A program made the position numbers and the translations under genes. From Verrucomicrobiota bacterium (GTDB taxonomy: Bacteria > Verrucomicrobiota > Verrucomicrobiia > Opitutales > Opitutaceae), in the NCBI GenBank assembly GCA_028293565.1, contig JAQGON010000203.1, forward strand, positions 1-62,733: DNA of 62,733 nt. Reading direction: 5' to 3'. This document shows positions 21,122-53,745 of this stretch, in pieces; position 1 is the first letter of the stretch; every line of letters starts with the position of its first letter. The notes below the pieces were generated by a model that was not told the origin of the DNA, did no database searches, and saw nothing but the letters and a program-made list of their open reading frames with translations.

Positions 21122-21160
21122 TTGACACCATGGTTGCTCTCAGAAATATCCATGTATACA
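21122..21160 (+). promoter_or_regulatory. Promoter with GTATAC-centred operator before HpcH/HpaI aldolase
   Basis: A TTGACA at 21122-21127 is followed after 17 bases by AATATC (21145-21150), a plausible sigma-70 promoter. The palindrome TGTATACA (21153-21160) lies just downstream of the -10 box, where a bound repressor would block initiation. Similar palindromes lie at 33430, 34866, 39161 and 53738; the encoded GntR/FCD protein is the likely binder. Confidence 0.65.
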
Positions 21161-21178
21161 CGAGAGTTCATCTTCCCC

Positions 21179-22006
21179 ATGAGTACCTCCCCGCCCCTTC
21201 TCCGGAAAAGCCGCGTGCTGGCCGCGCTGCGCTCCGGACGCCCCGCCACCTGCCTCAAGCTCAACCTCGCCGACCCGCGCATCGCCGAGATCTCGGGCAT
21301 CGCCGGCGTCGACGCCGTCTGGCTCTGCAACGAGCACGTGCCGAACCACTGGCTCAACATGGAGGGCCAGATCCGCGCGGCGAAGCTCTACAACGTCGAC
21401 ACCTTCGTGCGCGTCGAAAAGGGCAGCTACAGCGATTACATCCGCCCGTTCGAGGCGGACGCGAACGGGATCCTCGTGCCGCACGTCACCACGGCGGACG
21501 AGGCCCGGCAGATCGTGGCGTGGACGCGCTTCCAGCCGGTCGGCCGCCGGCCGCTCGACGGCGGGAACGCCGACGCCCGGTTCTGCGCCGTGCCGCTCGA
21601 GGACTACCTGGCGCACAGCCTGCGGGAGCAGTTCGTCATCCTGCAGATCGAGTCGCCCGAGGCGCTGGAAAATCTGGAGGAGATCGCGGCGGTCCCCGGC
21701 TTCGACATGTTCTGCTTCGGCCCCGGCGATTACTCCCACCTCATCGGCAAGCCCGGCCAGGTGACCGCCCCCGAGGTCGTGGCCGCCCGCCAGCGCGTCG
21801 CGCGCGTGGCCCGCGAGCATGGCAAGTTCGTCATGACCTCCGGCCTGATGGCGTCGCGCCAGACGATGGAGGAGGAAGGCCACGGGCTCTTCAACCTCGG
21901 CGCCGATGTCGTCGGCCTGTCCGACTACGTGCGCCAGAAGCTCAAGAGCTTCCATGACGCGCCCGGCGGGGCGTTCGCCGGGACCGCCGCCGCCGCGCGA
22001 GCGTAG
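21179..22006 (+). CDS. HpcH/HpaI-family class II aldolase (copy 1)
   Basis: The 275-residue protein fits the HpcH/HpaI family, which cleaves 2-keto-3-deoxy sugar acids (GarL acts on 5-keto-4-deoxyglucarate) to pyruvate and an aldehyde. The substrate-binding Arg is in TFVRVEKGS; metal ligands are Glu in LQIESPEA and Asp in CFGPGDYS; IAAVPGFDMFCFGPGD is the classic family signature. The ATG at 21179 is chosen because an in-frame ATG at 21152 sits inside the operator. It is closely related to the protein encoded at 29939-30760. It begins the catabolic island and lies just before a sugar ABC transporter. Confidence 0.85.
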   Translation: MSTSPPLLRKSRVLAALRSGRPATCLKLNLADPRIAEISGIAGVDAVWLCNEHVPNHWLNMEGQIRAAKLYNVDTFVRVEKGSYSDYIRPFEADANGILVPHVTTADEARQIVAWTRFQPVGRRPLDGGNADARFCAVPLEDYLAHSLREQFVILQIESPEALENLEEIAAVPGFDMFCFGPGDYSHLIGKPGQVTAPEVVAARQRVARVAREHGKFVMTSGLMASRQTMEEEGHGLFNLGADVVGLSDYVRQKLKSFHDAPGGAFAGTAAAARA

Positions 22007-22049
22007 GCGCCGACGCGCGGGGCGGGACCGCCGTTCGCACCCACCCCAA

Positions 22050-22090
22050 ATTCAATGTTGGATGTTCGACGTTCCCTCTCCGATGTTCGT
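22050..22090. repeat. Degenerate repeat core before the solute-binding protein gene
   Basis: ATTCAATGTTGGATGTTCGA and the following bases resemble the right arm of the element at 9493-9530. It lies immediately upstream of the ABC transporter operon. Confidence 0.4.
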
Positions 22091-22102
22091 CCGCAACCGG
22101 GC

Positions 22103-23548
22103 ATGCGCGCTCTCCTTCTCAGTGTGTTCGCTTTTCTGACCGCCCTGAGCGCCGTGGCGATCTGGTGGATCCCCGCCCCGCCCCGCGGGCAGACCACGAT
22201 CCTCTGGGCCAGCAGCGAAAACCCGTTCCGCCGCGCGCAGATCGCGCGGTTCAACGCCCTGCATCCCGACCTGCTCCTGCAGCTCGACCGGAGCAACAAC
22301 CGGTTCGACAAGATCATCGTCCAGACGAGCAGCGGCGTCGGCCCCGACTGCTTCGACGTCCTCACCAGCACCTATCTCCAGGCCTACGTCGAATCGGGCG
22401 TCGCCTGGGATCTCTCGGCGGAGGCCGACGCCCGCGGAATCCTCGTGGACCGCGACGCCTGGCCTTCGATCCACAACGAGATCACGTACCAGGGCCGCCA
22501 ATACGGCTATCCCGCCAATGCGGGCACGTTCCTCATTCTCTACAACCGGAACATCTTTGACCGCTGCCGCGAGCCGTACCCGCCGGCGGCGATGACCTGG
22601 GAGGAATTCTTCGCGCTCCTGCGGCGCGTCGCGGCCGCCGCGGCCGGCGACGGGCCCCGCGTCTGGGGCACCAACGCGATCGACTACAGCGGCCGAATGC
22701 CGGCGCCGTTCCTCTGGAAGACGCTTTTCTACTCGCAGCACGGCGAGTTCTTTTCCGCCGACGGAACCCGGCCGACCATCGACACGCCCGAGATTCGCAC
22801 GGCGTTCCAGCTGCACCACGATGCGGTGTTTCTCCATCGCGTGATCCCGTCGGCGGTGGAAATGGGGACGCTGACGGGCCAGGGCGGCTGGGGCGGCGGC
22901 GCGCTGACGCAGTTTGCCGAGGGGCGGTTCGTGACGATCGTCTCGGGCAAGTTCGCCCTCGCCTCGCTGCGCGGATTCGTCGAGCAGCAGAAGTCGGACC
23001 TCGCCCGCTGGGAGGCGGACCCGGAGCGGCGCCGCCGCGAGCCGCGGCCGGAGGTGCTTCGCATCGGCGTGGTGCCGCTCCCGCATTTTCCAGGACGGCC
23101 GAGCACTGGGGTCGCGCTGTCGCAGACCGTCGTGATCAACCCGCGCAGTCCCCACCGGGAAGCGGCGTTGACGTTCCTCCAGTTTCTCGCAAGCGACACC
23201 TACGCGCGGATGGTGGAAATCTACGGCATGCCGGGAAATCCCGCGAAAGTGCGGTACGATTACCCGATCGCCCACGCGGAGCTGGCGGAGCACGAGCTGA
23301 CGCGCGCCGTCGCGGAGTCGCTGCAGCACGGCTACCAGACGCGCAAGAGCCCCTTCCTGCTCGATTTCGACGTCGAGCGCGTGCTGATGGAGCAGATTTT
23401 CCGGCTCGAGTCCGATCCGCAGCTCGATCCCGCCGCGCTGGTGCGCGAGGCCCAGCGCCAGCTCGACGAGCTGCTGCAGGGGAACCTGGCGCGCGATCCG
23501 CGCCTGGCGAAACTTTACCGCGCGCGCGCCGCAGCGGAGCCGCGATGA
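22103..23548 (+). CDS. ABC transporter extracellular sugar-binding protein
   Basis: The 481-residue protein has an N-terminal hydrophobic segment (MRALLLSVFAFLTALSAVAI) serving as signal peptide or anchor. It then has a family-1 solute-binding fold: TTILWASSENPFRRAQIARF, a hinge region ITYQGRQYGYPANAGTFLILYNRNIFD, and AALTFLQFLASDTYARM near the C-terminal lobe. No lipobox cysteine is obvious, so it may be membrane anchored or periplasmic. It overlaps the following permease gene by 4 bases (ATGA). Substrate is probably a mono- or oligosaccharide released by the island's enzymes. Confidence 0.88.
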   Translation: MRALLLSVFAFLTALSAVAIWWIPAPPRGQTTILWASSENPFRRAQIARFNALHPDLLLQLDRSNNRFDKIIVQTSSGVGPDCFDVLTSTYLQAYVESGVAWDLSAEADARGILVDRDAWPSIHNEITYQGRQYGYPANAGTFLILYNRNIFDRCREPYPPAAMTWEEFFALLRRVAAAAAGDGPRVWGTNAIDYSGRMPAPFLWKTLFYSQHGEFFSADGTRPTIDTPEIRTAFQLHHDAVFLHRVIPSAVEMGTLTGQGGWGGGALTQFAEGRFVTIVSGKFALASLRGFVEQQKSDLARWEADPERRRREPRPEVLRIGVVPLPHFPGRPSTGVALSQTVVINPRSPHREAALTFLQFLASDTYARMVEIYGMPGNPAKVRYDYPIAHAELAEHELTRAVAESLQHGYQTRKSPFLLDFDVERVLMEQIFRLESDPQLDPAALVREAQRQLDELLQGNLARDPRLAKLYRARAAAEPR

Positions 23549-24645
23549 AGCGCCGCCAGCCGCTGGTCGTCGGACTTTTTCTCGCGCCGAACCTCGCGGG
23601 ATTCCTCGTGTTCACCCTCGTGCCGGTGGCGCTCACGTTCGCGGGGAGCTTCACCAACTGGAGCCTGCGCCCCGCCCTGCCCCTCGAGTTCGTCGGGCTC
23701 CAGAATTATTCCCGCCTGATCCATGACCGGAGCTTTTACCTCTATCTCTACAACACGGCGTACCTGATGCTGGCGCTGCCGCTGGCGATCGGCGGCGCGC
23801 TGTTCCTCGCCGTGCTGCTCCACGGCAACCTGAATTTCCGGCACGCGCGCAACCGCGCGCGCGCCACGTGGGCGAGCGCGCTGGTCTCGGCCCTCTCGGC
23901 CGCGGCGCTCTGGTTCGCCGGCTCGGAAAATCTCGCCTGCGTCGTCGCGGCGCTCGGCGCGCTGGGCACGCTGGGCTTTGCGCTCGGCAGCACGGCCTAC
24001 CGCACGACCTTCTATCTTCCGAATTTCACCGCGGGCGCGGCGACGATCCTGCTGTGGACGCAGCTCTACAATCCGAACGTCGGCCTGATCAACCAGGGCA
24101 TTGCCCGCGTCGGCGGCTTCTTCGGCGTCGCCGTCACCGGACCCGGCTGGCTCACCAGCACCCGGTCCCTGCTCGGTTTCCTGCCGTGGCCGGAGTGGTT
24201 CAACAACGGCGGCTTCGGGGTCGGCGCGCGCGAGGCGATCATGCTCATGGGCATCTGGGCCGCGATCGGGGGGAACAACCTCATCCTCTTCCTGGCGGGG
24301 CTGAGCAACATTCCGCCGGAACTGAACGAAGCCGCCGAAATCGACGGCGCGGGCGGATGGCAGCGTTTCCGGCATATCACCTGGCCGCAGCTGGCGCCGA
24401 CCACGTTCTTCATCGTCATCATCTCGCTGATCGCCGGGCTGCAGGGCGGCTTCGAGCAGGCGCGGATGATGACGAACGGCGGGCCCGCGGGCACGACCAC
24501 GACGCTCAGCTATTACATCTACCTGCAGGGTTTCGAGCGGCTCGATCTCGGCTACGGCTCGGCGGTGGCCTGGATGCTCTTCCTCCTCGTGTTCGGACTG
24601 ACGGCCCTGCAGTGGCGGCGCGGCGCGCGCGACGGCGCGGACTGA
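23545..24645 (+). CDS. Sugar ABC transporter permease (MalF-like) with extra TM insertion
   Basis: The 366-residue inner-membrane permease has the MalF-type start (LVVGLFLAPNLAGFLVFTLVPVA split across the first helix) and the EAA loop NEAAEIDGAGGWQRFRHITW that contacts the ATPase. Between the second helix and the conserved RTTFYLPNF segment there is an insertion at about residues 98-151. It contains two hydrophobic stretches that usual family members of about 290-300 residues lack. Overlaps with the binding-protein gene and a 2-bp gap to the next permease define one operon. Confidence 0.87.
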   Translation: MKRRQPLVVGLFLAPNLAGFLVFTLVPVALTFAGSFTNWSLRPALPLEFVGLQNYSRLIHDRSFYLYLYNTAYLMLALPLAIGGALFLAVLLHGNLNFRHARNRARATWASALVSALSAAALWFAGSENLACVVAALGALGTLGFALGSTAYRTTFYLPNFTAGAATILLWTQLYNPNVGLINQGIARVGGFFGVAVTGPGWLTSTRSLLGFLPWPEWFNNGGFGVGAREAIMLMGIWAAIGGNNLILFLAGLSNIPPELNEAAEIDGAGGWQRFRHITWPQLAPTTFFIVIISLIAGLQGGFEQARMMTNGGPAGTTTTLSYYIYLQGFERLDLGYGSAVAWMLFLLVFGLTALQWRRGARDGAD

Positions 24646-24647
24646 CG

Positions 24648-25496
24648 ATGAACCGCGAGCTGAAGATTTTCCTGAAGCACTTCTGCCTGCTCTTTCTCGG
24701 GCTGAGCATGATCTTTCCGTTCCTCTGGATGGCCGGCGCGAGCTTCAAGCCGAACGCCGAGATCGAGCACCTTTCCCTCCTGCCCAGCGAGGCCCATCCC
24801 GACAACTACGCCATTGTGCTCCGGCAGATCCCGGACCCGCACACCGGCCAGAAGCTGAACCTCGATTTTCCGAAATGGTACTTCAACTCCTTCTTCGTCG
24901 CGGCGTGGGTCACGAGCCTCCAGGTCCTGACCAGCGCGATGGCCGCGTTCGCCTTCTCGCGGCTGGAGTGGCGCGGGCGCGACACGGTGTTCCTGCTCTA
25001 TCTCGGGACGATGATGGTGCCGAGCGTCGTGCTGATGCTGCCGAATTACCAGGTGATGGTGAAACTCGGGCTGGTGAACACCTATCGCGGATTGATCCTG
25101 CCGATGGCGTTCTCCGCGTTCGGGACGTTCCTGCTGCGGCAGTTCATGATCACGCTCCCGCGAAGCTACGACGAAGCCGCGGAGATCGACGGCGCCACGC
25201 CGCTCCAGCTTTTCCTCGACGTGATCCTGCCCCTGACGCGGCCCGGGATCGTCGCGCTGGCCATCCTGACTTTCCTGGGGAATTTCCAGTCGTTCACCTG
25301 GCCGCTGGTGATGGTGAAGGACGATTATCTGCGGACGATCCCGATCGGGCTGCTGTCATTCCAGACTGACTATGGACAGCAGACCGAGCTCATCATGGCC
25401 GCGACGGTGATGAACATCGTTCCGCTGATCGCGCTGTTCATCGTCATGCAACGCCAGCTCGTCAGCGGCATCCAGCTCGGCGGCGTCAAGGGCTAA
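24648..25496 (+). CDS. Sugar ABC transporter permease (MalG-like)
   Basis: The 282-residue protein has six membrane segments and the MalG-family EAA motif DEAAEIDGATPLQLFLDVILP near residue 175. It follows the first permease by 2 bp. The operon ends here without a gene for the ATP-hydrolysing subunit. Systems of this CUT1 type often share a MsmK/UgpC-like ATPase encoded elsewhere. A repeat-derived hairpin follows and may terminate transcription. Confidence 0.88.
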   Translation: MNRELKIFLKHFCLLFLGLSMIFPFLWMAGASFKPNAEIEHLSLLPSEAHPDNYAIVLRQIPDPHTGQKLNLDFPKWYFNSFFVAAWVTSLQVLTSAMAAFAFSRLEWRGRDTVFLLYLGTMMVPSVVLMLPNYQVMVKLGLVNTYRGLILPMAFSAFGTFLLRQFMITLPRSYDEAAEIDGATPLQLFLDVILPLTRPGIVALAILTFLGNFQSFTWPLVMVKDDYLRTIPIGLLSFQTDYGQQTELIMAATVMNIVPLIALFIVMQRQLVSGIQLGGVKG

Positions 25497-25507
25497 GAGG
25501 TGCGCGT

Positions 25508-25613
25508 GTAGCACGGGTCTCCGACCCGTGAAGGTGGACTCGAGCGAAACGGGTGTGCTCGGCGTTCTCCGTTGGCTGAGTCCGCCTTCACGGGTCGGAG
25601 ACCCGTGCTACGC
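25508..25613. repeat. Long inverted repeat overlapping a gene end
   Basis: The left arm (25508-25541) and right arm (25579-25612) are near-perfect complements. Each contains an inner palindrome, CACGGGTCTCCGACCCGTG. The right arm contains the last codons of the FAD oxidoreductase gene on the - strand, whose C-terminal GVARVSDP is therefore repeat-encoded. The structure lies between convergent genes and could act as a two-way terminator. Confidence 0.85.
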
Positions 25614-27165
25614 CGAGGATCGCTTGCGCCGCGTTGTAGCCAGGAGCCCCCGAGACCTCTCCCCAGGGATGCATGCCGCCGCCGCAGAGGTACAGGCCTT
25701 CGATCGGCCCGCGATACCGGGCCAGCTCCGGCAACGGCCGCCGCCACAGCAGCTGCGACGGGATCGCGTCAAGGTGGTGAATGTTTCCGTCGGTGAGATA
25801 ATTCCGCGTCTCGAGATCCTCCGGCGTCAGGAGCACGTGGTCCTGCAGGGCGCGGCGGAAATTCGTCGTGTGCTTCTCCATCACCCGGATCACCCGCTCG
25901 ACCATCGCCGGCTTCAGCTCGGCCCAAGTGCCCGCCCGCGGACGCACCGGCGCCCAGACGAGATACGCCGACCACGTGTACTTCCCGCGCGGCGCCAGCG
26001 ACGGATCGTACACGCTCGTCATGAAGGCCGCGAGCACCGGCTCGTCCGGCAGATCCCCCTGCGCCGCCGCGCGCCAGGCCGCGAGGCGATAGGCGCGGTC
26101 CGGGGCCAGGATCAGCGTCGAGCGCAATTTCTGCTCGTCGGTGAGACCGTCGGCGATGCGGTACTGCAGGGGCTCGGAGAGCGTGCAGTGAATCTTGAGG
26201 CCCGCGGCGGCGTGGGTCTGCAATCCGCGGATTCTCCCGCGGAATTTTTCGTCGAGCGCGGCGGGTTCGATCAACTGGAGAAAAGTCCGCTTCGGATCGA
26301 CGTTCGAAACGACCGTCGCCGCCGCCAGGGTTTCCCCCGACGCCAGCTCCACGCCGCGTGCGGCCCCGTGCTCGACGACGATGCGTTTCACGACGGCGCC
26401 CGTGCGGACTTCGACCCCATGCTCCCTCGCCGCCAGCAGCATCGTCTCGCTGATCCGGCCCATTCCGCCCCGCACGTAACCGTTCAGAACCGGCTCGCCG
26501 GTCTCGCTGTAGCCGCCCATCGCGGCGGTCAGCGCGAAGAGCAGGCCGGTGCCGACGTCGTGGACGTCGCCGATGTCCGCCGCGACGCCGACGTCGCGCA
26601 TGACCTCGCTTTCAAAGAACCGGTCCGCGATCGCGGCGATCGAGTTCGTGAGCACCAGGTCGAGCGCCGCCCGGTCGGCGGGATCGGTGCAAGCCGCCTG
26701 GATCTCCTCGATCCGCGGCGGCGGGCGCATCAGCCAGGGCCCGAAGATGCGCACCAGTCTTCCGACAAACTCCTGCCACCGCGGATACGCCTCCGCGTCG
26801 GCGGCCGAGAACTTCGCAATTTCCCTCTGCGTTTCCGCGAGCGTCCCGTCCCCGTCCACGCTTCCCATGTTCCGCCCCGAAAAAAGATAGCGCCCGTCCG
26901 GCTGCAGCCGCAGGAAAACCCGCGAGTCCACGACCAGCCCGTGACGCGCCAGTTCCATGTCCCGCACGATCTGCGGCCGCAACGCCCACACCAGATTGGC
27001 GCAGGTCGAAAAGCGGTAGCCCGGAATCAGCTCCTCGGTCACGCAGCATCCGCCGAGGATGGGGCGCGCCTCGAGGACGAGCACGCGCCGGCCGGCGCGC
27101 GCGAGGTAGAAGGCGGCGACGAGCCCGTTGTGCCCGCCGCCAATGACGATGACATCGTGGTCCAT
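25588..27165 (-). CDS. FAD-dependent oxidoreductase of the phytoene desaturase/PYROXD2 type
   Basis: The 525-residue protein opens with the dinucleotide-binding motif HDVIVIGGGHNGLVAAFYLARAG (Rossmann GxGxxG) and continues ILGGCCVTEEL. Mid-protein it has GMGRISETMLLAAREHGVEV, and the C-terminal FAD-contact region is YLCGGGMHPWGEVSGAPGYNAAQA. This pattern fits the PYROXD2 branch of phytoene-dehydrogenase-like proteins, whose substrates are mostly unknown; carotenoid synthesis is unlikely as no other crt gene is present. It is the last of a five-gene operon starting at 30760 and lies 6 bp after the NanQ-like gene. Confidence 0.82.
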   Translation of the reverse strand: MDHDVIVIGGGHNGLVAAFYLARAGRRVLVLEARPILGGCCVTEELIPGYRFSTCANLVWALRPQIVRDMELARHGLVVDSRVFLRLQPDGRYLFSGRNMGSVDGDGTLAETQREIAKFSAADAEAYPRWQEFVGRLVRIFGPWLMRPPPRIEEIQAACTDPADRAALDLVLTNSIAAIADRFFESEVMRDVGVAADIGDVHDVGTGLLFALTAAMGGYSETGEPVLNGYVRGGMGRISETMLLAAREHGVEVRTGAVVKRIVVEHGAARGVELASGETLAAATVVSNVDPKRTFLQLIEPAALDEKFRGRIRGLQTHAAAGLKIHCTLSEPLQYRIADGLTDEQKLRSTLILAPDRAYRLAAWRAAAQGDLPDEPVLAAFMTSVYDPSLAPRGKYTWSAYLVWAPVRPRAGTWAELKPAMVERVIRVMEKHTTNFRRALQDHVLLTPEDLETRNYLTDGNIHHLDAIPSQLLWRRPLPELARYRGPIEGLYLCGGGMHPWGEVSGAPGYNAAQAILGVARVSDP

Positions 27166-27171
27166 GCGGAA

Positions 27172-28967
<1,796 letters not shown>

Positions 28968-29010
28968 AAAAGTCTGGCGCAGACATGCCGCCGGCCTGGG
29001 TCGCGGGCGA

Positions 29011-29928
29011 TCACAGCCATCCCTTGCCCTTGAGAAAGGCCGAGACGCGATTCATCTCCTCGTCGTTCAGGCTGTAATAGGGGGAACGCCGCCACCGCTG
29101 CGCCAGGCCCTTCGCCTCCATGATGCCATGGACGACGGCGTCGAAACTCCCGGGCGTGCTCACCATGAACTCCCAGAACGGAATATCGACCTCGGCAATG
29201 ATTTTCCGGATCGCGGCGTCGTTCCTTCCTTTCGCCGCGGCCCAGAAGGCGTGGGCGATTTCCGGTTTGATGTAGATGAAGCTCGAGAGATATCCGTCGC
29301 AGCCGAAGGGAACGTTGTTCAGGACGATCTGCTTGGTGCCGCTGGCGAACACCGCCCATCGGTCATGCACTTCAAGGCCGAGATGACGGCCGAGTTCGCC
29401 GCACACGTCGTCCTTCACCGCGAGAATTCCCGGCACCTCGTCGCGCAGCCGCCGCAGCAGCTCCAGGGTCCGCGACAGCGGCCATTTCAGCAGGAAGTTG
29501 GTCACCACCATCACGGGAATCTGCCGCGCCACCTGGCGATAGTGATCCACGAGGGTGTCCACCGTGCAGCTCTGGCACCAGTCCGGCGGCAGCACCATCA
29601 GCATGTCGGCGCCGGCATCGCGGCAAAAGGCGGAAAACTCGACCGTCTTCCCGGTCCACCACATGCGGTCGGCCGCCACGACGAGCGCGCGCCGCGCCGT
29701 GTGGTCGACGGTGGCCTTCGTCACGGTCGCGACCTCCTCGTCCGTCAGGAGCGAGTACAGGCTGTCCCCGTACGTGAGCAGGATGGTCCGGCTTCCGCCC
29801 GCGATGACGAAGTCGATGAAGTTCCTCAGGCCGGCAAAATCGATTTGCCCGGTCCGGGTGAAGGGAACCGAGAGCGAGGCGATCGGGCCGGAGAGGGCGT
29901 GGCGGATTTCCGCGAGGGTCTTGGACAT
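29011..29928 (-). CDS. DHDPS/N-acetylneuraminate lyase family protein
   Basis: The 305-residue TIM-barrel protein has the Schiff-base lysine in GILAVKDDVCG (K172). The catalytic tyrosine usually found in an F/YN motif after strand 5 is replaced: the segment reads MVVTNFLLKW (T143). Family enzymes cleave or form 2-keto acids (N-acetylneuraminate, 2-keto-3-deoxygluconate, dihydrodipicolinate). In this operon, together with sialidase-like and NanQ-like genes, a lyase or dehydratase acting on a sugar acid is likely. It lies 10 bp after the aldolase gene. The ATG at 29928 gives the standard N-terminus. Confidence 0.82.
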   Translation of the reverse strand: MSKTLAEIRHALSGPIASLSVPFTRTGQIDFAGLRNFIDFVIAGGSRTILLTYGDSLYSLLTDEEVATVTKATVDHTARRALVVAADRMWWTGKTVEFSAFCRDAGADMLMVLPPDWCQSCTVDTLVDHYRQVARQIPVMVVTNFLLKWPLSRTLELLRRLRDEVPGILAVKDDVCGELGRHLGLEVHDRWAVFASGTKQIVLNNVPFGCDGYLSSFIYIKPEIAHAFWAAAKGRNDAAIRKIIAEVDIPFWEFMVSTPGSFDAVVHGIMEAKGLAQRWRRSPYYSLNDEEMNRVSAFLKGKGWL

Positions 29929-29938
29929 GGAAAGGTCG

Positions 29939-30760
29939 TCAGCGGCGGCGTTTTTTCGCGGGTTTCCGCGCGGGAGCGGCATGGAACTCCGCGACTTTTC
30001 CGCGCACGTAATTGCCGAGGCCGACCACGTCCGCGCCGAGCGTGATGAGGCGGTGGCCCTCCTGCTGCAGCGCCGCGCCCGAGACGCTCGAGCCCGCGGC
30101 CATCGCGAATTTTCCGTGGGCCTGCGCGCGCCGCGCGACCAGGCGCCGGGCGGCGACGACGCGGGCGTCATCGGTCCGGCCGGGCAGTCCCGACAGGTGG
30201 GCGAAATCCGCCGGCCCGAAGCAGACGAGGTCAAAGCCGGGCACCGCGAGGATCTCGTCCAGGTTCTCGAGCGCCTCGGGCGACTCGATCTGCATGACGA
30301 TGATCCGCTCCCGGAGATTGTTCGCGATGTAGTCGTCCACGCCCAGCGCGCAGAACTTGCCGTCGGCGTTGCCGCCGTCCATCGCGCGCGAGCCGACGGG
30401 CTTGAAGCGCGTCCACTTGACGGTCTGGCGCGCCTCCTCCGCGGTCGTGACATGCGGCACGAGGATCCCCGTCGCGTCGGCCTCGAACGGCTTGACGTAG
30501 TCGCTGTAGCTTCCCTTCTCCACGCGGACCAGCGTGTCGACGTCGTAGAGCTTCGCGGCGCGGATCTGGTTCTCGATCATCGTCCAGGTGCTCGGCACGT
30601 GCTCGTTGCACAGCCAGACGGAATCGACGCCGGACATGGCGGCGATTTCGATGACGCGGGGGTCCGAGAGGTTGGACTTGAAGCACGTCGCAGCGCCGCC
30701 GCTGCGAAGGAGCTTGAGGATGCGGCTTCGGCGTAACAGGCGGTTGGGCTGGTTTTTCAT
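29939..30760 (-). CDS. HpcH/HpaI-family class II aldolase (copy 2)
   Basis: The 273-residue protein shares long identical stretches with the gene at 21179 (for example VDSVWLCNEHVP, RVEKGSYSDY and FEADATGILVPHVTT). It keeps the family ligands Glu (MQIESPEA) and Asp (CFGPADFA). The C-terminus is a basic tail, KPAKKRRR, absent from copy 1. It heads the 30.8-25.6 kb operon. The two copies may cleave different stereoisomers of a keto-deoxy sugar acid. No GTATAC palindrome is seen before this gene. Confidence 0.85.
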   Translation of the reverse strand: MKNQPNRLLRRSRILKLLRSGGAATCFKSNLSDPRVIEIAAMSGVDSVWLCNEHVPSTWTMIENQIRAAKLYDVDTLVRVEKGSYSDYVKPFEADATGILVPHVTTAEEARQTVKWTRFKPVGSRAMDGGNADGKFCALGVDDYIANNLRERIIVMQIESPEALENLDEILAVPGFDLVCFGPADFAHLSGLPGRTDDARVVAARRLVARRAQAHGKFAMAAGSSVSGAALQQEGHRLITLGADVVGLGNYVRGKVAEFHAAPARKPAKKRRR

Positions 30761-30961
30761 GGGTGGGACCGGAATCAGACGCCGGCAGAGAGCTAGTCAT
30801 TCGGCGCACGCGCAGACAATCCTCATGCGCGGACGTCTCGGATGGCCGGTCGCCGCGGGCGTGCAGCGGCGCATGGCGCGGACTTCCGGATCGCTCAGCC
30901 GCCATGTGAAAAGAAAGAGGGGTTGGACGCCCACAGGGACATCCTTGCTTCGGTTGAAATC

Positions 30962-30991
30962 GGCCCCGCCCGGAGTGAGCCGGGCGGGGCC
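30962..30991 (-). terminator. Strong hairpin after the TonB receptor gene
   Basis: A 12-bp perfect stem (GGCCCCGCCCGG with its complement) and a 6-base loop lie 12 bases beyond the TAA of the receptor gene. On the - strand it is followed by GATTTC, a weak U-tract. It probably terminates or protects the receptor transcript. Confidence 0.7.
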
Positions 30992-31003
30992 GCGAGTGCG
31001 GAA

Positions 31004-33226: not shown

Positions 33227-33429
33227 TGGGATCAGGCGGTTTGGGTTGGGATGCGCCCGGCCGTTTTGGCCGCGCGCAAAGGGATCGGGTGACGGAAGAA
33301 ACTCACGACCGCCGCCAGGCCGCCGCCTCCCCGCACGCGGAACGAAGGCGGCCGTCACAGCGTGGGAAAGAAAGTGCATCAGACCTCGGGGCGCGGCGTG
33401 ATGTAGACCTTGTCATGCCTCAATGCGAT

Positions 33430-33450
33430 GTGTGTATACACACTAATACC
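33430..33450 (-). promoter_or_regulatory. GTATAC operator upstream of the TonB receptor
   Basis: A perfect 14-bp palindrome, GTGTGTATACACAC (33430-33443), is followed by AATACC at 33445-33450. Read on the - strand this gives GGTATT-N5-GTATAC, identical in spacing to sites at 34869, 39152 and 53728. It implies a leader of about 200 bases before the receptor start. Confidence 0.7.
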
Positions 33451-34865: not shown

Positions 34866-34885
34866 TGGGTATACTCAACAATACC
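34866..34885 (-). promoter_or_regulatory. GTATAC operator upstream of sialidase-like copy 2
   Basis: TGGGTATACTCA (34866-34877) is an almost perfect palindrome, and AATACC lies at 34880-34885. On the - strand the layout is GGTATT-N5-GTATAC, and a TTGACA directly precedes GGTATT. The gene start is 41 bases further on. Confidence 0.65.
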
Positions 34886-36860: not shown

Positions 36861-36862
36861 CG

Positions 36863-37819: not shown

Positions 37820-37834
37820 GCCGGAAGAAAGGAA

Positions 37835-39130: not shown

Positions 39131-39170
39131 TGACAGACGTCAGTCGCGCTAGGTATTTCTGTGTATACAC
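39130..39170 (+). promoter_or_regulatory. Divergent control region with GTATAC operator
   Basis: On the + strand TTGACA (39130-39135), a 17-base spacer and GTATTT (39153-39158) form a promoter, followed at once by the perfect palindrome GTGTATACAC (39161-39170). GGTATT (39152-39157) and GTATAC (39163-39168) are 5 bases apart. The -35 box overlaps the start codon of the divergent aminotransferase gene, so one repressor may control both directions. Confidence 0.72.
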
Positions 39171-39192
39171 GTCGGAGCAAGCTGAATTTCCC

Positions 39193-47208: not shown

Positions 47209-47565
47209 CGGTGGAACGCGTTGCCGGAGACCCTGAGCTTCACCGACTGGTAGCAGCCGCCGTCAGGCGGCTGAACCCAAGGCGTCTACGCAGCCAAACG
47301 CGGGCCACAGCCTCCTCACGTCGGCTGCTACCGGGAGGCCTGGAGCTTTTAACTAAAACTGTGGCCGCCGAATGCCCGGCGGCGCCGAGAAATTCCGGCG
47401 CGGAGGTTGGCCGCAAAAATGCGCAAGGGCACTGGGGTTGCGCAGGAGCTGCCATCGCGCCCATAGGCGCACGGGAGATTCGATCCGGAGCCGCCGAGCC
47501 CTTGTGCTTTTTTTGCGGCCAACCCCTTCCCGGCTTCCTGGCCGACGCACTTTTTTTGAAGTGCC
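47209..47565. repeat. Gene-free spacer with two inverted repeats
   Basis: This 357-bp gap between convergent genes holds two structures. The first pairs 47249-47273 (GGTAGCAGCCGCCGTCAGG and on) with 47308-47332 (ending CACGTCGGCTGCTACC). The second pairs 47405-47430 (GGTTGGCCGCAAAAATGCG and on) with 47498-47524, leaving a 67-bp inner part, like a small non-autonomous element. A partial GGTGGAACGCGTTGCC copy is at 47211. I see no gene. Confidence 0.75.
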
Positions 47566-48495
47566 CTAATTCACCACGTTCTGCGGCGCGCCTTCGGCGA
47601 AACGGCGCACGTTTTCCACCGCGATTTTCATCAGGCGGCCGCGCGCGGCCTGCGTGGCCCAGGCGTGATGCGGCGTGACCAGGCAGTTCCGCGCCGCGAT
47701 CAGCGGGCTTCCGTTGACCGGCGGCTCCGTCGACAAAACATCCACCGCCGCGCCGGCCAGCCGTCCGGCATTGAGCGCCGCCGCCAGATCGTGCTCGGCC
47801 ACCAGCGGACCGCGGCTGGTGTTGATCAGGAACGCGGTGGGTTTCATCCGCGCCAGCGTCGAGGCATTGATCAATTCCCGGGTCTCGGCGGTAAGCGGGC
47901 AATGAAGGCTGATCACGTCGCTCTCACCGAGCACGCGATCAAGCTCATCCTTCCCTCCGGTCCGGGTCGCGAAGATCACCTTCATGCCAAGCGCCCGCGC
48001 GAGGCCCGCGACCGCCTGCGCAATCCGTCCCGATCCGATGAGACCCAGCGTCCGGCCGTCCAGCTCAACCAGGGGCGTTTCAGCGAAGCAGAAATCCGGG
48101 CAGCGCGCCCAGTTGCCGGCGCGCACGCTGGCGGCGTGACGCCCGACCTGGTTCGTGAGCTCGAGCAACAGCGCGACGGTGTGCTGCGCAACCGACATCG
48201 TGCCATAAGCCGGAACATTGGTCACCGGAATGTTCCGCGCCCGGGCCGCCTTCGCGTCGACGACGTTGAATCCCGTCGCAAGCACGCCGATATACCGAAG
48301 GGCGTCGAGCTGGGCGATGGTCTCCCCGGAAAGGACCGTCTTGTTCGTCAGCACGATTTCGGCGCCACGCGCCCGCGGAAGCACGTCCTCGGGCGCGGTC
48401 CGGTCGTGAACCTCGCACGGAGCGATCCGCGACAGATCCGCCCAGCTGAGGTCGCCGGGATTCAGCGTGGCTCCGTCGAGGACGACAATTCTCAT
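47566..48495 (-). CDS. D-2-hydroxyacid dehydrogenase, glycerate/hydroxypyruvate-type
   Basis: The 309-residue protein has LGLIGSGRIAQAVAGLARA (NAD loop) and the catalytic triad Arg in LINTSRGPLV, Glu in VLSTEPPV and His in LVTPHHAWAT. ATGFNVVD and IPVTNVPAYGTMSVAQHTVA are typical of glycerate dehydrogenases (hydroxypyruvate reductase). It would interconvert hydroxypyruvate or tartronate semialdehyde-related acids and glycerate. It is the last gene of the 53.6-47.6 kb operon, 10 bp after the SDR gene. Confidence 0.87.
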   Translation of the reverse strand: MRIVVLDGATLNPGDLSWADLSRIAPCEVHDRTAPEDVLPRARGAEIVLTNKTVLSGETIAQLDALRYIGVLATGFNVVDAKAARARNIPVTNVPAYGTMSVAQHTVALLLELTNQVGRHAASVRAGNWARCPDFCFAETPLVELDGRTLGLIGSGRIAQAVAGLARALGMKVIFATRTGGKDELDRVLGESDVISLHCPLTAETRELINASTLARMKPTAFLINTSRGPLVAEHDLAAALNAGRLAGAAVDVLSTEPPVNGSPLIAARNCLVTPHHAWATQAARGRLMKIAVENVRRFAEGAPQNVVN

Positions 48496-48505
48496 GCCGC
48501 CAGCA

Positions 48506-49243
48506 TCAGTCGTGCGTCCAGCCGCGGTCAACCGTGAGACACTGCCCGGTCACGTCGCGGCTGTCGTCCGAGGCGAGAAACGCGAACACCGGTTCGACCG
48601 TCTCCGGCGTCAGCCGCCCGCGCAGCGCCTGCTTTTCCTCGAGGCTCTGCAGCACCGCCGCCTGGTCGGGAAACAATCTGAGCTCCCCCTCCGTGAGCAC
48701 CGCCCCGAGGTGCACGCAGTTGACCCGCACGTTGTGCCGGCCGAGGTCGCGGGCCAGTCCGCGCGTCATTCCGACCAGTCCGCCCTTGCTCGCGAGGTAG
48801 TGCGTCAGATGGGACATGCCCAGGCGGAGGACGACGCTGCCGACATTGATGATCACGCCGCCCTGCTGCCGCTTGAGCTGCGGAATGATCGCCTCGCAGC
48901 AGCGCCACGCGCCGTCGAGGTTGGTGTCGAGGATTTTTCGCCAGCTCTCCGTCGTGATCTCGTCGGCCGGCTGGCGCGGATAAATCCCCGCGTTGTTGAT
49001 CCACACATCGATCCGGCCGAATCGCGCGACGATCGCCGCCACCGCCTCCCGGATTTCCTCCGCGTTCGTCACGTCGAGCTTCACCGCCCACGCCGGAGCG
49101 ACCGCCGCCGCCGATTTCTCGAGGCTCCGCACGCCCGCGACCGCATGCGCGCCCCGCCGCAGGAAACCCGCCACGAGCCCGCGGCCGACGCCTTCGCCGG
49201 CGCCGGTGACGACGCAGACCTTGTCCGTCAGCTCGATTGCCAT
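48506..49243 (-). CDS. Short-chain dehydrogenase/reductase
   Basis: The 245-residue classical SDR has VVTGAGEGVGRG (cofactor loop), INNAGIYPRQP, Ser in INVGSVVLRLG and the active-site SHLTHYLASKGGL (YxxxK). DVTNAEE suggests NAD preference. It overlaps the MlrC-like gene by 16 bases, so it is translationally coupled within the sugar-acid operon. A role as alcohol or sugar-acid dehydrogenase is likely; the substrate is unknown. Confidence 0.85.
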   Translation of the reverse strand: MAIELTDKVCVVTGAGEGVGRGLVAGFLRRGAHAVAGVRSLEKSAAAVAPAWAVKLDVTNAEEIREAVAAIVARFGRIDVWINNAGIYPRQPADEITTESWRKILDTNLDGAWRCCEAIIPQLKRQQGGVIINVGSVVLRLGMSHLTHYLASKGGLVGMTRGLARDLGRHNVRVNCVHLGAVLTEGELRLFPDQAAVLQSLEEKQALRGRLTPETVEPVFAFLASDDSRDVTGQCLTVDRGWTHD

Positions 49244-50697
49244 CGTGAAACGGGTGCCTTCGGCGCGGGGTTCATGGGAAAGAGATCACGCCGTTCCCCG
49301 GTGAACGGCAATCGCGCAAAATCGAGGGATGCACTGCCGGGTCCGTCGAAAATCAACCCCCACTCCGCCGGCGCGGAATACCCGGCCTGCCAGCCCATGA
49401 GGCTCTTCACCTGGACGGCGAGCGCCCGGATCGGCTCGAGCCGGAGGCACTCGTAAAACGCCGGGTCCGCGCCAAGCGTGCCCGCGCTGCTGACCACGAT
49501 GCGGAGCCGGCCCGCCGCGAGCACCACGGTCTGTCCCATCGAGAACGCCAGCCCCGTGTACGCCCGGCCGCGCGCCCGGTAATTTCCCTCGCCGCTGAAA
49601 ATGACATCGCCCGTAATTTCCACCTGGCCTTCCCCGACGCGCCCGCCCCTCGCGCCGGCCTGAAACGCGCGGCACGCCCGGGCGTCGACCACCCAGAGCA
49701 GCACCTCTCCCGGCAGTTTCTCCCGCAGCGGCCAGAGCCGCGCGATCGCCTCCGCGCTCGCCCCGCTCGAACCGGCGGTCGTGGCGTCGGCGGAATCCAC
49801 CAGGATCCACGGATGTTCCGCCGGCTGCCGCAAGGTCGCCAGGATTTTTTCCCAAGGTTGCACGCCGGTTTTCCACTCGAGGCGCTGGTCATACCAGCGC
49901 TGCGCCAGCCTCGCCGCAGCCGACTCCCCTTCCGCCCCGCCCGACGTGGTGACGACAATGCTGCTGCCCATCTCCGCCACGTCCATCCACGGCTGCACCG
50001 GGAAAACGCTCGCCTCCAGCACGCCGGGAAGCGTCTCGATCCGGCGCGCCTCCGTCAGAATCTCGGAAAATCGTCCGTGCGCATGGTGCGTGTCGGTGGG
50101 CGGGATCAGCGCCGCCATCTTGGCGAGAACGCGGGTGGTGTGGGCCGGCCCGGCCAGCGCCAGCCGGGCGGCGCGTTCTCCCGTCGCGCGAAAATCGAGG
50201 TGCGGCATCGTGCGGTAGGCCGTGATCGCGTCGGCATGGATCAGCATGCGGCGCGTGACGTTCGCATGCAGGTCGAGGGAAACCACCAGCGGACCCGAAA
50301 AACCCAGTTCGCGCCGGACGCGCTCGAGAAGGTTTCCTTCCGCGTCGTCCTCGCCTTCGGCGCAGGCGGCACCGTGAAGGTGGAGCACAATCACGTCGGC
50401 CATTCCGGCGGCCCCCAGGCGCTCGAGCAGGATCGAGCCGATCGCCGCGAAGCAGGCGGCGCTCATCCGGCCCGCCGGCGTCCCGCAGCTTGCCACCAAC
50501 ACAGGGCGCGCCTCCCAGCCGGCCGCATCGAACACCGACAGGCTGCCCGCCATTTGGGTGTCGGCCACCTCGCACCAGCTCCGGATCGCCGCTTCTTCCG
50601 TCAGCCAGGTGCCGCCGCGGGTAAAGAGCTCCAGCTCCGCCGGGGCGTCGTTGAACGTATTCGTCTCAAAGATAAACTGCGCGAGCACGACCTTCAT
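49228..50697 (-). CDS. M81-family metallopeptidase (MlrC-like)
   Basis: The 489-residue protein has the M81 layout: VVLAQFIFETNTFND at the start, VIVLHLHGAACAEGEDDAEG, VSLDLHANVTRRML and YRTMPHLDFRATGERAARL. MlrC cleaves linearised microcystin fragments, but homologues are widespread and many probably act on other amide or ester bonds. It overlaps the dehydratase-like gene by 4 bases and the SDR gene by 16. In this sugar-acid operon it could hydrolyse an N-acyl or lactone group; this is an inference. Confidence 0.8.
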   Translation of the reverse strand: MKVVLAQFIFETNTFNDAPAELELFTRGGTWLTEEAAIRSWCEVADTQMAGSLSVFDAAGWEARPVLVASCGTPAGRMSAACFAAIGSILLERLGAAGMADVIVLHLHGAACAEGEDDAEGNLLERVRRELGFSGPLVVSLDLHANVTRRMLIHADAITAYRTMPHLDFRATGERAARLALAGPAHTTRVLAKMAALIPPTDTHHAHGRFSEILTEARRIETLPGVLEASVFPVQPWMDVAEMGSSIVVTTSGGAEGESAAARLAQRWYDQRLEWKTGVQPWEKILATLRQPAEHPWILVDSADATTAGSSGASAEAIARLWPLREKLPGEVLLWVVDARACRAFQAGARGGRVGEGQVEITGDVIFSGEGNYRARGRAYTGLAFSMGQTVVLAAGRLRIVVSSAGTLGADPAFYECLRLEPIRALAVQVKSLMGWQAGYSAPAEWGLIFDGPGSASLDFARLPFTGERRDLFPMNPAPKAPVSRWQSS

Positions 50698-51677
50698 TTC
50701 CCGAGGGCCGGCGGCGCGTCCGGCTTCCCAAAAATCGGCTCCATCAGTCCCTTCAAATACCCGATCGCGAAAATATTTCCGTGCAGGCCGTAGCCGTCAT
50801 GCGCTCCGGGATCCGTGACCAGGTGCGGGACGTGGTCGGACCGGATGAAACCGTCATACCCGATTTCCCGATACGTCTGGAAGACCTTCACCAGGTCCGT
50901 CGGCCCGTTGTCCGGAAAGGTCTCGTGGAATTTTTCGAGGCGGCCGGAGACATCGCGGCAGTGCACAAAATTGATTCGTCCGCGGAAATGGCGGATCGTC
51001 GCGCAAAGGTCCGCGCCCAGCTCGGCAAAGCACCCCTGGCAGAGCGTGATGCCGTTCGCCGGGCTCGGGGCCAGCGCGAGGAGCCGATCGAAATTCTCCA
51101 CGCTCCGCATGATGCGCGCGAGCTGCCACATCGGCGAAAGCGGCGGGTCGTCCGGATGCATCGCGAGCCGGACGCCGGCGGCCTCGGCGGCCGGGACCAC
51201 CCGGCGCAGAAAATACTCCAGGTTGTCCCACATCTGCTCGTCCGTCGTGCGGCCCTCGGAAGTGACGCGCTCCCGGTCGAAGGCCGACAGGTCGAAGCCG
51301 CTCGTCACCGCCCCGCCGCGCTCGCGCACCGTCGTCGACGTGCGGATGACCATCGCGTCCGCCGTGATCTGGGGCATGAAATTGTAGCAGAGGACCCCGA
51401 TCCCGAGCCGGCCCATCGCCTCGAGGGCGCGCTTGTACTCCTCGATCTGCGCGTCGCGTCCGTCCTTGCCGAGCACGATGCGGTCGATCGGCGGTCCGCC
51501 CTCGACCGCCGCGAGCCGCAGGCCCGCGCGCGCGGCGCGTTCCTGCTCCTGGCGCAGCGCCTCGAGTCCGGCCGGCATCCCGTTCATGTTGTAATAGACG
51601 AGGTCCGGCACGCCGAGCTGCGCGAGCAGGCGGAAATTCTCGTCGGTGGGCGGGGTGATGACGGCGGACAGTTTCAT
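50694..51677 (-). CDS. Mannonate dehydratase (UxuA)-like TIM-barrel protein
   Basis: The 327-residue protein has UxuA features: GVLCYNFMPQ, metal-binding LAMHPDDPPLSP, ITLCQGCFAELG, and INFVHCRDVSG close to the C-terminal strands, then GFIRSDHVPHL. UxuA dehydrates D-mannonate to 2-keto-3-deoxygluconate. It overlaps the AroD-like gene by 4 bases and the MlrC-like gene by 4. The length is slightly below E. coli UxuA (394). It likely acts on an aldonic acid in this operon. Confidence 0.82.
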   Translation of the reverse strand: MKLSAVITPPTDENFRLLAQLGVPDLVYYNMNGMPAGLEALRQEQERAARAGLRLAAVEGGPPIDRIVLGKDGRDAQIEEYKRALEAMGRLGIGVLCYNFMPQITADAMVIRTSTTVRERGGAVTSGFDLSAFDRERVTSEGRTTDEQMWDNLEYFLRRVVPAAEAAGVRLAMHPDDPPLSPMWQLARIMRSVENFDRLLALAPSPANGITLCQGCFAELGADLCATIRHFRGRINFVHCRDVSGRLEKFHETFPDNGPTDLVKVFQTYREIGYDGFIRSDHVPHLVTDPGAHDGYGLHGNIFAIGYLKGLMEPIFGKPDAPPALGK

Positions 51678-52444
51678 GCGAGATCGAGCAGGGCGCGGGC
51701 CCGCGCCACCAGCGGCTGGGCGGGCAGGCGGTTCGAACCGGACGCTGGCCGGGCCAGCAGGTACGCGGCCCCGAACGCCGTCATGAAGGGGCGCACCGTC
51801 TCCGCGCCCGGACCAAGCGGCAGGAAGACAAAGGGAAAGTCGTGGGCCGCGCGCAGCCGGAGGCTGAGGCGGACCGAATCCAGCGCTTCGGAGACGCTGC
51901 GCACCCGCTCGACCACTTTCACGAAATCGGCGCCGCGGTCGCGCAGCGCGGCCACGGCCCGCGACGCCTCGCGCCAAGCCAGTTTCCTCGGCGGGTGCCA
52001 GGAATAGATCACGGTCTTCCGCGCTCGCTGCGCTGCTGCGACCACTTCGGCCTGCCGGCGCAGGGCTCCGCGCTCACGCGTCCATTCGTCGGCGCACGCG
52101 GCGAACGTGTCCGCCTCGAGATCGAGCCCCGCCGCGCCCGCCACCAGCGCCGACAGCTGGAGCTCCATCCGGCGTGCGTCCGCGCGCGCGGACAGCTGTC
52201 TGAATTTCGCTCCGTAAACCGTCATGAAACGCGCGCGCCGGCAGGAGGTGTAAACCGGTCCGGGGAGGCGCGCAAAGAACGCGCGGCCCGGCAGGTCATC
52301 GTCGTCCAGCGACGCCAGGTTGAGCTCGACCGCGTCCGCGCCCTCGCGAAACGCCGCGGAGGCGGCGCGGCGGGCGGCGCCGGCGTCACGCTCCGCCACC
52401 ACTCCCACCACGAACGGGCGCTTGAGCTGGGTCAGGCTCACCAT
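51674..52444 (-). CDS. Type I 3-dehydroquinate dehydratase-like protein
   Basis: The 256-residue barrel resembles AroD. It has Glu40 in DAVELNLASL, Arg69 in VYTSCRRA, His150 in VIYSWHPP and the Schiff-base lysine K176 in ADFVKVVE; the end has FLPLGPGAETVRPF and MTAFGAAYLLARP, close to the AroD phosphate/carboxylate loop. Overlaps of 4 and 7 bases place it between a UxuA-like and a glucarate-dehydratase-like gene. A role in quinate breakdown or in lysine-dependent dehydration of another keto acid is more likely than shikimate synthesis. Confidence 0.78.
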   Translation of the reverse strand: MVSLTQLKRPFVVGVVAERDAGAARRAASAAFREGADAVELNLASLDDDDLPGRAFFARLPGPVYTSCRRARFMTVYGAKFRQLSARADARRMELQLSALVAGAAGLDLEADTFAACADEWTRERGALRRQAEVVAAAQRARKTVIYSWHPPRKLAWREASRAVAALRDRGADFVKVVERVRSVSEALDSVRLSLRLRAAHDFPFVFLPLGPGAETVRPFMTAFGAAYLLARPASGSNRLPAQPLVARARALLDLA

Positions 52445-53649
52445 AGCGGCACGTGCGGAATCCAGCCGGGGCGGTTCGGGTCGAAGAACTCGATCCGGTC
52501 GCCCAGCTTGAGGTAAAGCCGGTGGTATTTCTCGAGCTTCTCGCGGTCGATCTCGACGCCGAGACCCGGCCCCTGCGGAAGGGACACCGCGCCGTTTTTC
52601 CAGCGGAGGGGCTTGGTGATGATGTCGTCGACCTGGAAGGCGTAGTGCGAATCGTACTTGTGGCAGAGCGATGGCGTGGTGGCCCAGAGGTTGAGGCTCG
52701 CCGTCATGCCGATTCCCAGCTCGCGATCGCTGTGGATCGCAAGGCCGAAGCCGAAGGTCTCGGCGACCGCGGCGAGCTTTTTGCACTGGGTGATGCCGCC
52801 CCAGAAATAGGGGTCGACGAGGATGACGTCGAGCGCGTGCATCCGGAGCATCGGGGCGACCTGGTCGAAGTTGAGCACGGCCATGTTGGTGGCGAGCGGG
52901 ACGTTGACCGACGCCCGGACGCGCGACATGCCCTCGAGATTGAAGGTCGGATCCTCGCAGTACTCGAGGTCGTACTCGTCCAGTTTCTTCAGCTCGTTGA
53001 TCGCGGTCTCGGTGCTCCAGACCTGGTTCGGGTCGACGCGGAGGTGCTGGATCTGATCGCCGAATTTTTTCCGCAGCGCCTTCACCGTCGCGCGCTCGAT
53101 CGCCGGCTCGAACACGCCGGTCTTGAGCTTCAACCCGGTGAAACCGAAGCGCTCGACGTGATCGGCGTATTGCTCGCAGATGCCGGCGGGCCCGTCCTCG
53201 CCGCCGATCTTTCCGTTGCGGCTTTTGTAGCGGTAGAAAAGGTACGCCACGAAGGGGACCTGCTCGGAGTCCGCGCCGCCCCACAGGTCGCAGACCCTTT
53301 TTCCCTGCGCCTTCCCGATGATGTCCCAGCACGCCATCTCGACCGCGGCCGCCACGTAGCGGAGCTCGATCGTCAGCGCCGACTGCTCGCTCGTCGTGCG
53401 GAAAACCTCGAAATTCTTGACGATGCGCGAGACCTCCAGCGGATCGTAGCCGAGGAAGAACGGCTCCGCGCTCTTGAAGCGCGCGGCGGTGCTCGCGCCC
53501 CCGTAGGTTTCCCCGAGGCCGACGATGCCCTCGTCGGTGTGCAGCTCGAGAATCGTCCGGGTCGTGCCGGTTTCCACGCCCATGCTCCAGCGCAGGGGGG
53601 CCTCCATCGGAATGTGCACGGGGGTGCAGACGAAGCGCGTGATTTTCAT
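52438..53649 (-). CDS. Mandelate racemase/enolase-superfamily dehydratase, glucarate dehydratase-like
   Basis: The 403-residue protein has the K-x-K motif GLKLKTGV (K174, K176), metal ligands D206 (RVDPNQVW), E232 (YCEDPT) and D279 (LVDPYFWGG), and the C-terminal base H306 in LAIHSDRELG. The KxK plus His pair is that of glucarate-dehydratase-type enzymes, which eliminate water from aldaric acids to give keto-deoxy acids. It is the first gene of the six-gene - strand operon and lies about 90 bp from a GTATAC operator. Exact substrate (glucarate, galactarate or a related acid) is not certain. Confidence 0.85.
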   Translation of the reverse strand: MKITRFVCTPVHIPMEAPLRWSMGVETGTTRTILELHTDEGIVGLGETYGGASTAARFKSAEPFFLGYDPLEVSRIVKNFEVFRTTSEQSALTIELRYVAAAVEMACWDIIGKAQGKRVCDLWGGADSEQVPFVAYLFYRYKSRNGKIGGEDGPAGICEQYADHVERFGFTGLKLKTGVFEPAIERATVKALRKKFGDQIQHLRVDPNQVWSTETAINELKKLDEYDLEYCEDPTFNLEGMSRVRASVNVPLATNMAVLNFDQVAPMLRMHALDVILVDPYFWGGITQCKKLAAVAETFGFGLAIHSDRELGIGMTASLNLWATTPSLCHKYDSHYAFQVDDIITKPLRWKNGAVSLPQGPGLGVEIDREKLEKYHRLYLKLGDRIEFFDPNRPGWIPHVPLW

Positions 53650-53727
53650 AGGGTCAGCGGGACCGCCGCGGACAGCGGCCGGCCCGCCTCCATCACGGAT
53701 CGTCCCGCCTCCGGGTCAATATTTTTA

Positions 53728-53745
53728 GGTATTTTTGTGTATACA
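53728..53745 (+). promoter_or_regulatory. GTATAC operator between the dehydratase operon and gntR-type gene
   Basis: GGTATT (53728-53733) and GTATAC (53739-53744, inside palindrome TGTATACA 53738-53745) have the same 5-base spacing as the other sites. The layout points to the + strand regulator gene, suggesting autoregulation, but the palindrome could also control the divergent operon starting at 53649. No strong -35 box is visible. Confidence 0.65.

Follow-up and report, generated by a model that had tools for sequence, protein, structure and literature searches.

The stretch of DNA analysed here (the window) comprises positions 1 to 62,733 of contig JAQGON010000203.1 from a Verrucomicrobiota bacterium of the family Opitutaceae, and it carries an island of catabolic genes together with a gene for an FCD-type GntR regulator at 53887. 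Six short sites built on a GTATAC core are concentrated in this island. Such sites are found again at orthologous promoters of a second species, and their core also occurs in the upstream regions of a clade of related regulator genes. We consider it very probable that these six sites are operators of the regulator encoded at 53887, which would control as many as seven transcription units of the island besides its own gene, acting as a repressor that also contacts a half-site next to the palindrome. Binding itself, the stoichiometry at the half-site, repression and the effector are inferred.

An earlier note on this DNA had listed five GTATAC cores, four of them with GGTATT five bases upstream, and a sixth, diverged site at 55699. 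All five cores are present, at 21154, 33434, 34869, 39163 and 53739, although the positions first given for them were off by one to four bases. Shuffled versions of the window, whose base composition is 67% G+C, hold 0.74 such cores on average, and none of 100 shuffles reaches five. The four sites with GGTATT proved to be exact matches to GGTATT-N5-GTATAC (Table 1); with up to two mismatches allowed the window yields five matches against 0.22 expected, the fifth at 6774 with two mismatches. Genome-wide counts were made by pattern searches only. Across the assembly (4,155,081 bases in 239 contigs), allowing one mismatch, five matches were found, namely the four window sites and one on contig C148 (C148:4116, one mismatch), and the reversed control pattern gave none. 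No exact copy was found outside the window across the 4.16-Mb assembly: all four lie within it, and the scatter across the genome that would have spoken against a regulon was not seen. The degenerate pattern GYATTNNNNNGYATAC, which was broadened after inspection of the 55699 site, finds that site among six in the genome, five of them in the window, against one for its reversed control; the motif patterns are in part derived from the sites that they count. The palindrome TGTATACA by itself has eight genomic copies, four of which fall in the window (binomial P 3e-6 for this concentration). The others lie on C17 and C221, upstream of paralogous GntR genes, on C99 within a predicted open reading frame, and on C148.

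Start codons were re-read and site-to-start distances counted for every window site. The sites do stand just ahead of island genes, as had been proposed, with the correction that the sialidase-like target is the second of two such genes. The 21154 core and the 55699 site both look like genuine members of the family, the former because its orthologous copy in the second species is better preserved, and the latter because of its position upstream of the likely true start of the dehydrogenase gene, where a plausible ATG at 55671 would leave the site outside the gene. The TonB receptor could alternatively begin at a later codon, 33226, which would give it a signal-like sequence.

The second species (genome G007) encodes a regulator homolog that is 83% identical. 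Its island is split across two contigs, C36 and C60, and consists of largely conserved blocks with homologs 57-91% identical: the gene order of 47566..53649 is kept on C36, with one extra gene between regulator and dehydratase, and the order TonB-HpcH-DHDPS-BNR is kept on C60. Searching G007 with the window consensus AGGTATTNNTGTGTATACA at up to three mismatches returned five sites, all on the two island contigs, and none with the reversed control; three of the five had been seen earlier with a related pattern. One (C36:41677) stands upstream of the regulator ortholog, in an alignable block within a diverged spacer, and another (C60:2867) is the ortholog of the 39152 site in the same DegT/amidohydrolase intergenic region. 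C60:5169 corresponds to the 33434 site upstream of the TonB receptor, while C60:17132, which reads AGGAATTTCTGTGTATACA and is nearer the consensus, corresponds to the 21154 site before the first HpcH aldolase (HpcH1; orthologs 83% identical). The fifth is upstream of a gene adjacent to the regulator that looks DHDPS-like by sequence (C36:39830). In G007 the dehydrogenase homolog (57%, C60:17369) and HpcH1 run divergently from either side of the C60:17132 site. The window dehydrogenase has its own site at 55699, whereas its counterpart faces the HpcH1 site. No separate counterpart of the promoter or site of the second window BNR gene (BNR2) was seen in G007. When orthologous upstream regions are aligned, alignable blocks appear at the sites (regulator, TonB, amidohydrolase/DegT and HpcH1) within otherwise poorly aligned sequence, the block before the regulator reading GTCAATATTTTTA(A/G)GTATTTTTGTGTATACAT.

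A regulator homolog of at least 83% identity occurs in only two of 252 family genomes, the window's own and G007, and the pattern RGTATTNNNNNGTATACMY was found among 95 relatives in precisely those two. Across all 252 genomes it has nine sites in four genomes, seven of them in the two that bear the ortholog. G166 and G240 hold a single match apiece, which is at background level, since the reversed pattern gives seven sites in six genomes. The core is shared far more widely, as 31 of the 36 clade regulators examined (47-100% identity, with the window's among them) have GTATAC between -300 and +20, against 2.0 expected, and 23 have the full TGTATACA, against 0.1 expected. These 36 were drawn from 70 listed places, the 34 left out including L016, L017 and the C226 copy of the window's own genome. 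In 26 of 34 relatives (47-59% identical) the core lies 15-40 bp before the regulator's own start, and in 23 of these its first base and the nearest start codon are 24-27 nt apart. In the same 26 relatives (L008-L014, L028, L030, L055-L077) only two have a Shine-Dalgarno-like word, and TTG and YAT are spaced like a promoter; their regulator mRNAs may be leaderless. The earlier note's choice of the FCD protein at 53887 as the binder is thus supported, in that the motif tracks its ortholog group, the core precedes the clade's own genes and the window sites lie in one island. It can be refined: the clade-wide core would be TGTATACA alone, and GGTATT appears to be a separate, half-site-like element.

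The position of this element is where the two groups part. Among the 11 sites of the window's ortholog group, GYAT stands at -10 from the core in nine, and at no other flanking offset in more than one; in the relatives G(T/C)AT stands at +10 in 21 of 26 (14 GTAT, 7 GCAT), with no other flanking offset exceeding three. In the FadR, HutC and YtrA subfamilies, extra half-sites have been described 7-12 nt from the centre of the palindrome (Suvorova 2015, PMC4494728), and the nine of 11 at -10 represent such a weaker half-site beyond chance. Of the 46 genomes with a clade regulator, 27 contain the pattern TGTATACA-N3-GYAT, compared with 10 of the 206 that lack one (Fisher P 4e-16, ignoring relatedness), a test that is partly circular because the pattern was read off loci in the same genomes. 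Of its 50 places, 23 lie at most 60 bp upstream of a clade regulator; the reversed control has six places. While the regulon itself fits a known type, we see the point of interest in this flip of the half-site between sister clades. Tentatively, and with more doubt than confidence, one might propose that sister FCD regulators are insulated from each other by the side on which the half-site lies, before or after the core, so that position and not core sequence would be the address code. The helix stretch RTPVRDALRQLEADGLV is identical in the window regulator and in many relatives whose half-site is on the opposite side. The C221 paralog, however, keeps RTPVR and then reads REALHKLKADGLV, differing in and after the helix, and such residue differences could also help to separate the paralogs.

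Three further arrangements deserve mention here. The C148 copy (L039:4117-4140, G000:C148) has half-sites on both sides of its core, GTATT at -10 and GCAT at +10, and is possibly read by two paralogous regulators. Its core is 49 bp upstream of an alcohol-dehydrogenase-like (ADH_N-domain) gene truncated by the contig end; apart from this copy, the sites stand before genes of one catabolic island. In a distant GntR group (L043:4598-4612 = G000:C17; L022, L025, L027) the promoter of the regulator itself carries a pair of GTATAC palindromes spaced 8 bp from each other, which would add a third geometry to the operators built on this core. Finally, two genomes have GGAATTCAAGTGTATGCA, which resembles the window motif in degenerate form, downstream of GntR paralogs that are 41-43% identical (L053, ~G000:C226:20697; L016:2415), and the G000 copy is near the start of a TonB receptor open reading frame.

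The regulator has the architecture of an FCD-type GntR protein, with a winged-helix GntR domain at its N-terminus (PF00392, E 4.3e-17) and an FCD domain at its C-terminus (PF07729, E 4.8e-19), each clearing its curated cut-off when the longer open reading frame 53758-54609 is searched. No NCBIfam equivalog model matches it at cut-off. Orthology to NanR was considered and rejected, as model NF003011 scores 46 bits against a cut-off of 260 and the 32-residue N-terminal extension is absent; the 240-residue protein aligns with solved GntR chains only from residue 8-13 onward. Several FadR-subfamily groups have been described with a gap of 2 nt between the GT and AC boxes (PMC4494728), and GTATAC has this form both at 53739, upstream of the regulator, and before the 31 of 36 clade members.

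Comparison with known systems, as given in the accessible parts of the published accounts, provides a framework for how the sites might work. Atu1419 of Agrobacterium fabrum, an FCD/VanR-type GntR repressor solved with its operator ATGTATACAT (PMC7797058), is a sequence relative of the window regulator (structure 6z74, E 6.8e-12), although overall sequence similarity is low. The two have in common the domain architecture, an identical short palindromic core, autoregulation with catabolic targets (proposed for the window regulator) and three of four cited contact residues, with the DNA-contacting Arg45, Thr46 and Arg49 of Atu1419 aligning with Arg41, Thr42 and Arg45 of the window protein. They differ in that Atu1419 uses palindromes only, as a tetramer able to loop DNA, whereas the window has a fixed extra half-site 10 bp off. 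For this second element the layouts of Suvorova 2015 are the better likeness, with a full palindrome and a weaker adjacent half-site, the two centred 11 bp apart in the window and 9 bp apart in the relatives; such half-sites are reported in 13 FadR-subfamily groups, with their role left open (PMC4494728). In its accessible text, the taxon table of that study has no Verrucomicrobia row, and no switch of half-site side between sister clades is described. NanR of E. coli, likewise an FCD GntR protein with a GGTAT half-site, binds (GGTATA)3, and its dimers assemble cooperatively on close repeats through the N-terminal extension, several packed closely on each operator (PMC8012715). The window island, like the NanR context, has sialidase-like, NagA/NagB-like and YhcH genes; unlike the window regulator, NanR uses direct repeats and has the 32-residue extension, where the window protein's match to solved relatives begins at residue 8. 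The NagQ half-site TGGTATT (PMC4494728) is nearly identical to the window's, but it occurs in direct repeats and belongs to the HutC subfamily. A palindrome with a half-site one DNA turn away is a known but rarely tested layout. A literature search, for which most subscription papers were out of reach, found no characterised GntR regulon in this lineage.

Taken together, the Atu1419 core, the published half-sites, the 10-bp same-face spacing and the NanR assembly lead us to favour a repressor that binds the palindrome as a dimer and makes a second contact at the half-site. In such a mechanism a dimer would read TGTATACA, and the weaker GGTAT(T), exactly 10 bp or one helical turn upstream, would present itself on the same face of the DNA, to be held by a neighbouring dimer or subunit with a gain in affinity and specificity. 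Repression would be the most likely outcome, as the sites either fall 19-54 bp ahead of the start codon, which is the case at five promoters, or separate divergent genes. The protein would come off the DNA when its FCD domain takes up an organic acid that is an intermediate of the pathway.

Other explanations of the same sites have to be weighed. The operator could be TGTATACA only, with GGTATT acting as a promoter -10 element whose phase is fixed by a repressor overlapping the transcription start. A perfect TTGACA does lie 17-19 bp upstream of GGTATT at four of the 11 sites, namely the amidohydrolase and HpcH1 sites of both species, and TCGACA, a 5/6 match, lies 16 bp upstream at a fifth; in the relatives, TTG at -11 (16 of 26) and GYAT at +10 (21 of 26) would fit -35 and -10 elements with a spacing of about 16 bp that takes in the core. 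At the remaining six of 11, the best -35 matches reach 2-3/6, yet the half-site is intact at the window TonB, BNR2 and regulator sites; it is present also at the 55699 and G007 DHDPS sites, which face away from their genes and where the -35 test is not expected to work. Within GYAT of the relatives, the leading G is conserved as strictly as the A (23 of 26 each) and eight of 26 have C in place of T, unlike a -10 box, and a consensus promoter scan of one promoter region, 38900-39300, found none. The explanation thus works at two promoters in both species, possibly at that of the G007 regulator, and poorly at the other six sites, and we regard it as rather unlikely. That the same AT-rich palindrome recurred by chance has next to no probability: GTATAC alone is found elsewhere, and one of the eight genomic copies of TGTATACA falls within a predicted open reading frame (C99), but counts, reversed controls and orthologous positions all contradict chance.

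The sites might also be common to several FCD paralogs, leaving the island under joint or other control. The genome has five matches to the regulator at E <= 1e-15, the window copy included (the paralogs lie on C221, C214, C226 and C17), and they have contact residues in common. In addition, a copy of TGTATACA precedes the gene of the C221 paralog, and C148:4117 has both half-site geometries. We nevertheless judge it improbable, as the half-site lies on opposite sides in the two groups, the -10 geometry is above background only in the two genomes with a 53887 ortholog, and a C221-like regulator (54%) is present in genome G003, where no site of that geometry occurs. Similarly, it seems quite improbable that the regulator acts at these sites as an activator. 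Such behaviour has a precedent in the FCD regulator CitO, which induces genes when its ligand is present (PMC4746285), but protein bound as close to start codons as here (19-54 bp at five promoters, 142 bp at the regulator) would usually block transcription, and both NanR and Atu1419 are repressors.

Several observations weigh against repression by the 53887 protein through palindrome and half-site. The Atu1419 contact Glu34 is not conserved, Ser30 standing in its place, and the paralogs of the genome share both the core and the contact motif (RTPVR/RTPIR), which makes any assignment of site to paralog provisional. The half-site is missing at 21154, where GAAATA takes the place of GGTATT, and is altered in the G007 ortholog of that site (GAAT) and at 55699 (GCAT); since this version occurs in only two species, conservation of the -10 layout is counted over 11 sites. 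A -10 role of GGTATT appears possible at two promoters. Of the 36 clade regulators, five have no upstream core and in three others it is confined to -75 to -246. The four homologs L015, L016, L017 and L031 (41-46% identity), all outside the 36-regulator count and two of them (L015 and L031) from another family, show no GTATAC in the available stretch, which in one case covers just 104 bp upstream. More distant homologs (27-38%) have GTATAC within ~220 bp upstream in six of 13 cases, and the core is therefore not exclusive to the clade.

Table 1. Regulator, putative operator sites and proposed target genes in the window
Feature	Position	Strand	Remarks
GntR/FCD regulator, 240 residues	53887..54609	+	ATG at 53887; proposed binder of all sites and of its own promoter
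Site GGTATTTTTGTGTATAC	53728..53744	+	Exact; core 142 bp before regulator start, 78 bp from divergent enolase-superfamily gene 52438-53649(-)
Site GGTATTTCTGTGTATAC	39152..39168	+	Exact; between divergent DegT aminotransferase (37835-39130, -; 21 bp) and amidohydrolase (39193-40101, +; core 24 bp)
Site GGTATTAGTGTGTATAC	33434..33450	-	Exact; core 54 bp before TonB-dependent receptor open reading frame (operon gene 31004-33379, -)
Site GGTATTGTTGAGTATAC	34869..34885	-	Exact; 43 bp ahead of start of second BNR (sialidase-like) gene 33509-34825(-)
Site GAAATATCCATGTATAC	21143..21159	+	Core intact, half-site decayed; 19 bp before HpcH/HpaI aldolase ATG 21179
Sixth site GCATTTTTGTGCATAC	55699..55714	+	Upstream of 2-hydroxyacid dehydrogenase gene 54721-55671(-), with 27 bp from gene start to near edge and 37 bp to core; oriented away from gene
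HpcH/HpaI aldolase, solute-binding protein, two permeases	21179..25496	+	Pfam; proposed target operon
TonB receptor, second HpcH aldolase, DHDPS-family, BNR, YhcH/DUF386 and amine oxidase genes	25588..33379	-	Pfam; proposed target operon
DegT aminotransferase, NagA-like and NagB-like genes	36066..39130	-	Pfam and NCBIfam; proposed targets of 39152 site
Enolase-superfamily dehydratase, UxuA-like, M81/MlrC, SDR, 2-hydroxyacid dehydrogenase	47566..53649	-	Pfam; proposed targets of 53728 site

By Pfam and NCBIfam families the island encodes aldolases (two HpcH, one DHDPS family), an ABC importer, a TonB receptor and two BNR sialidase-like proteins, together with NagA/NagB-like and YhcH/DUF386 proteins, DegT and class III aminotransferases, Gfo/Idh proteins, an SSF symporter, UxuA-like and enolase-superfamily dehydratases, an MlrC-type M81 protein and dehydrogenases. 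The NagA and NagB models of NCBIfam match below their cut-offs, and in an NCBIfam scan of ten proteins no listed match reaches cut-off; the probable substrate is therefore narrowed no further than to a sugar acid or an amino sugar. An Rfam search of the window matched no RNA element, and a tRNA link for the island was not found, the window holding no tRNA. A complete enolase gene lies within the island (window 45592-47208) and has no match on the compared G007 contigs (C36 whole, C60 1-32000). The window also contains what looks like an interspersed repeat family, TTGGAAGTTGAAAGTTG (9450-9519 and 20611-21074), with 45 places in the genome at up to one mismatch against seven for the reversed control, and about ten inverted pairs 40-250 bp apart. 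A related copy at 20611-20971 forms a 157-bp tandem array of 2.3 copies that ends ~180 bp before the HpcH1 site.

If the favoured reading is right, the window holds a local regulon with six testable sites, which points to a set of genes that would act together on one sugar-acid or amino-sugar substrate. Sister regulators that share the same core and contact residues but have the half-site on opposite sides of the palindrome also offer a clean experiment on what the half-site does.

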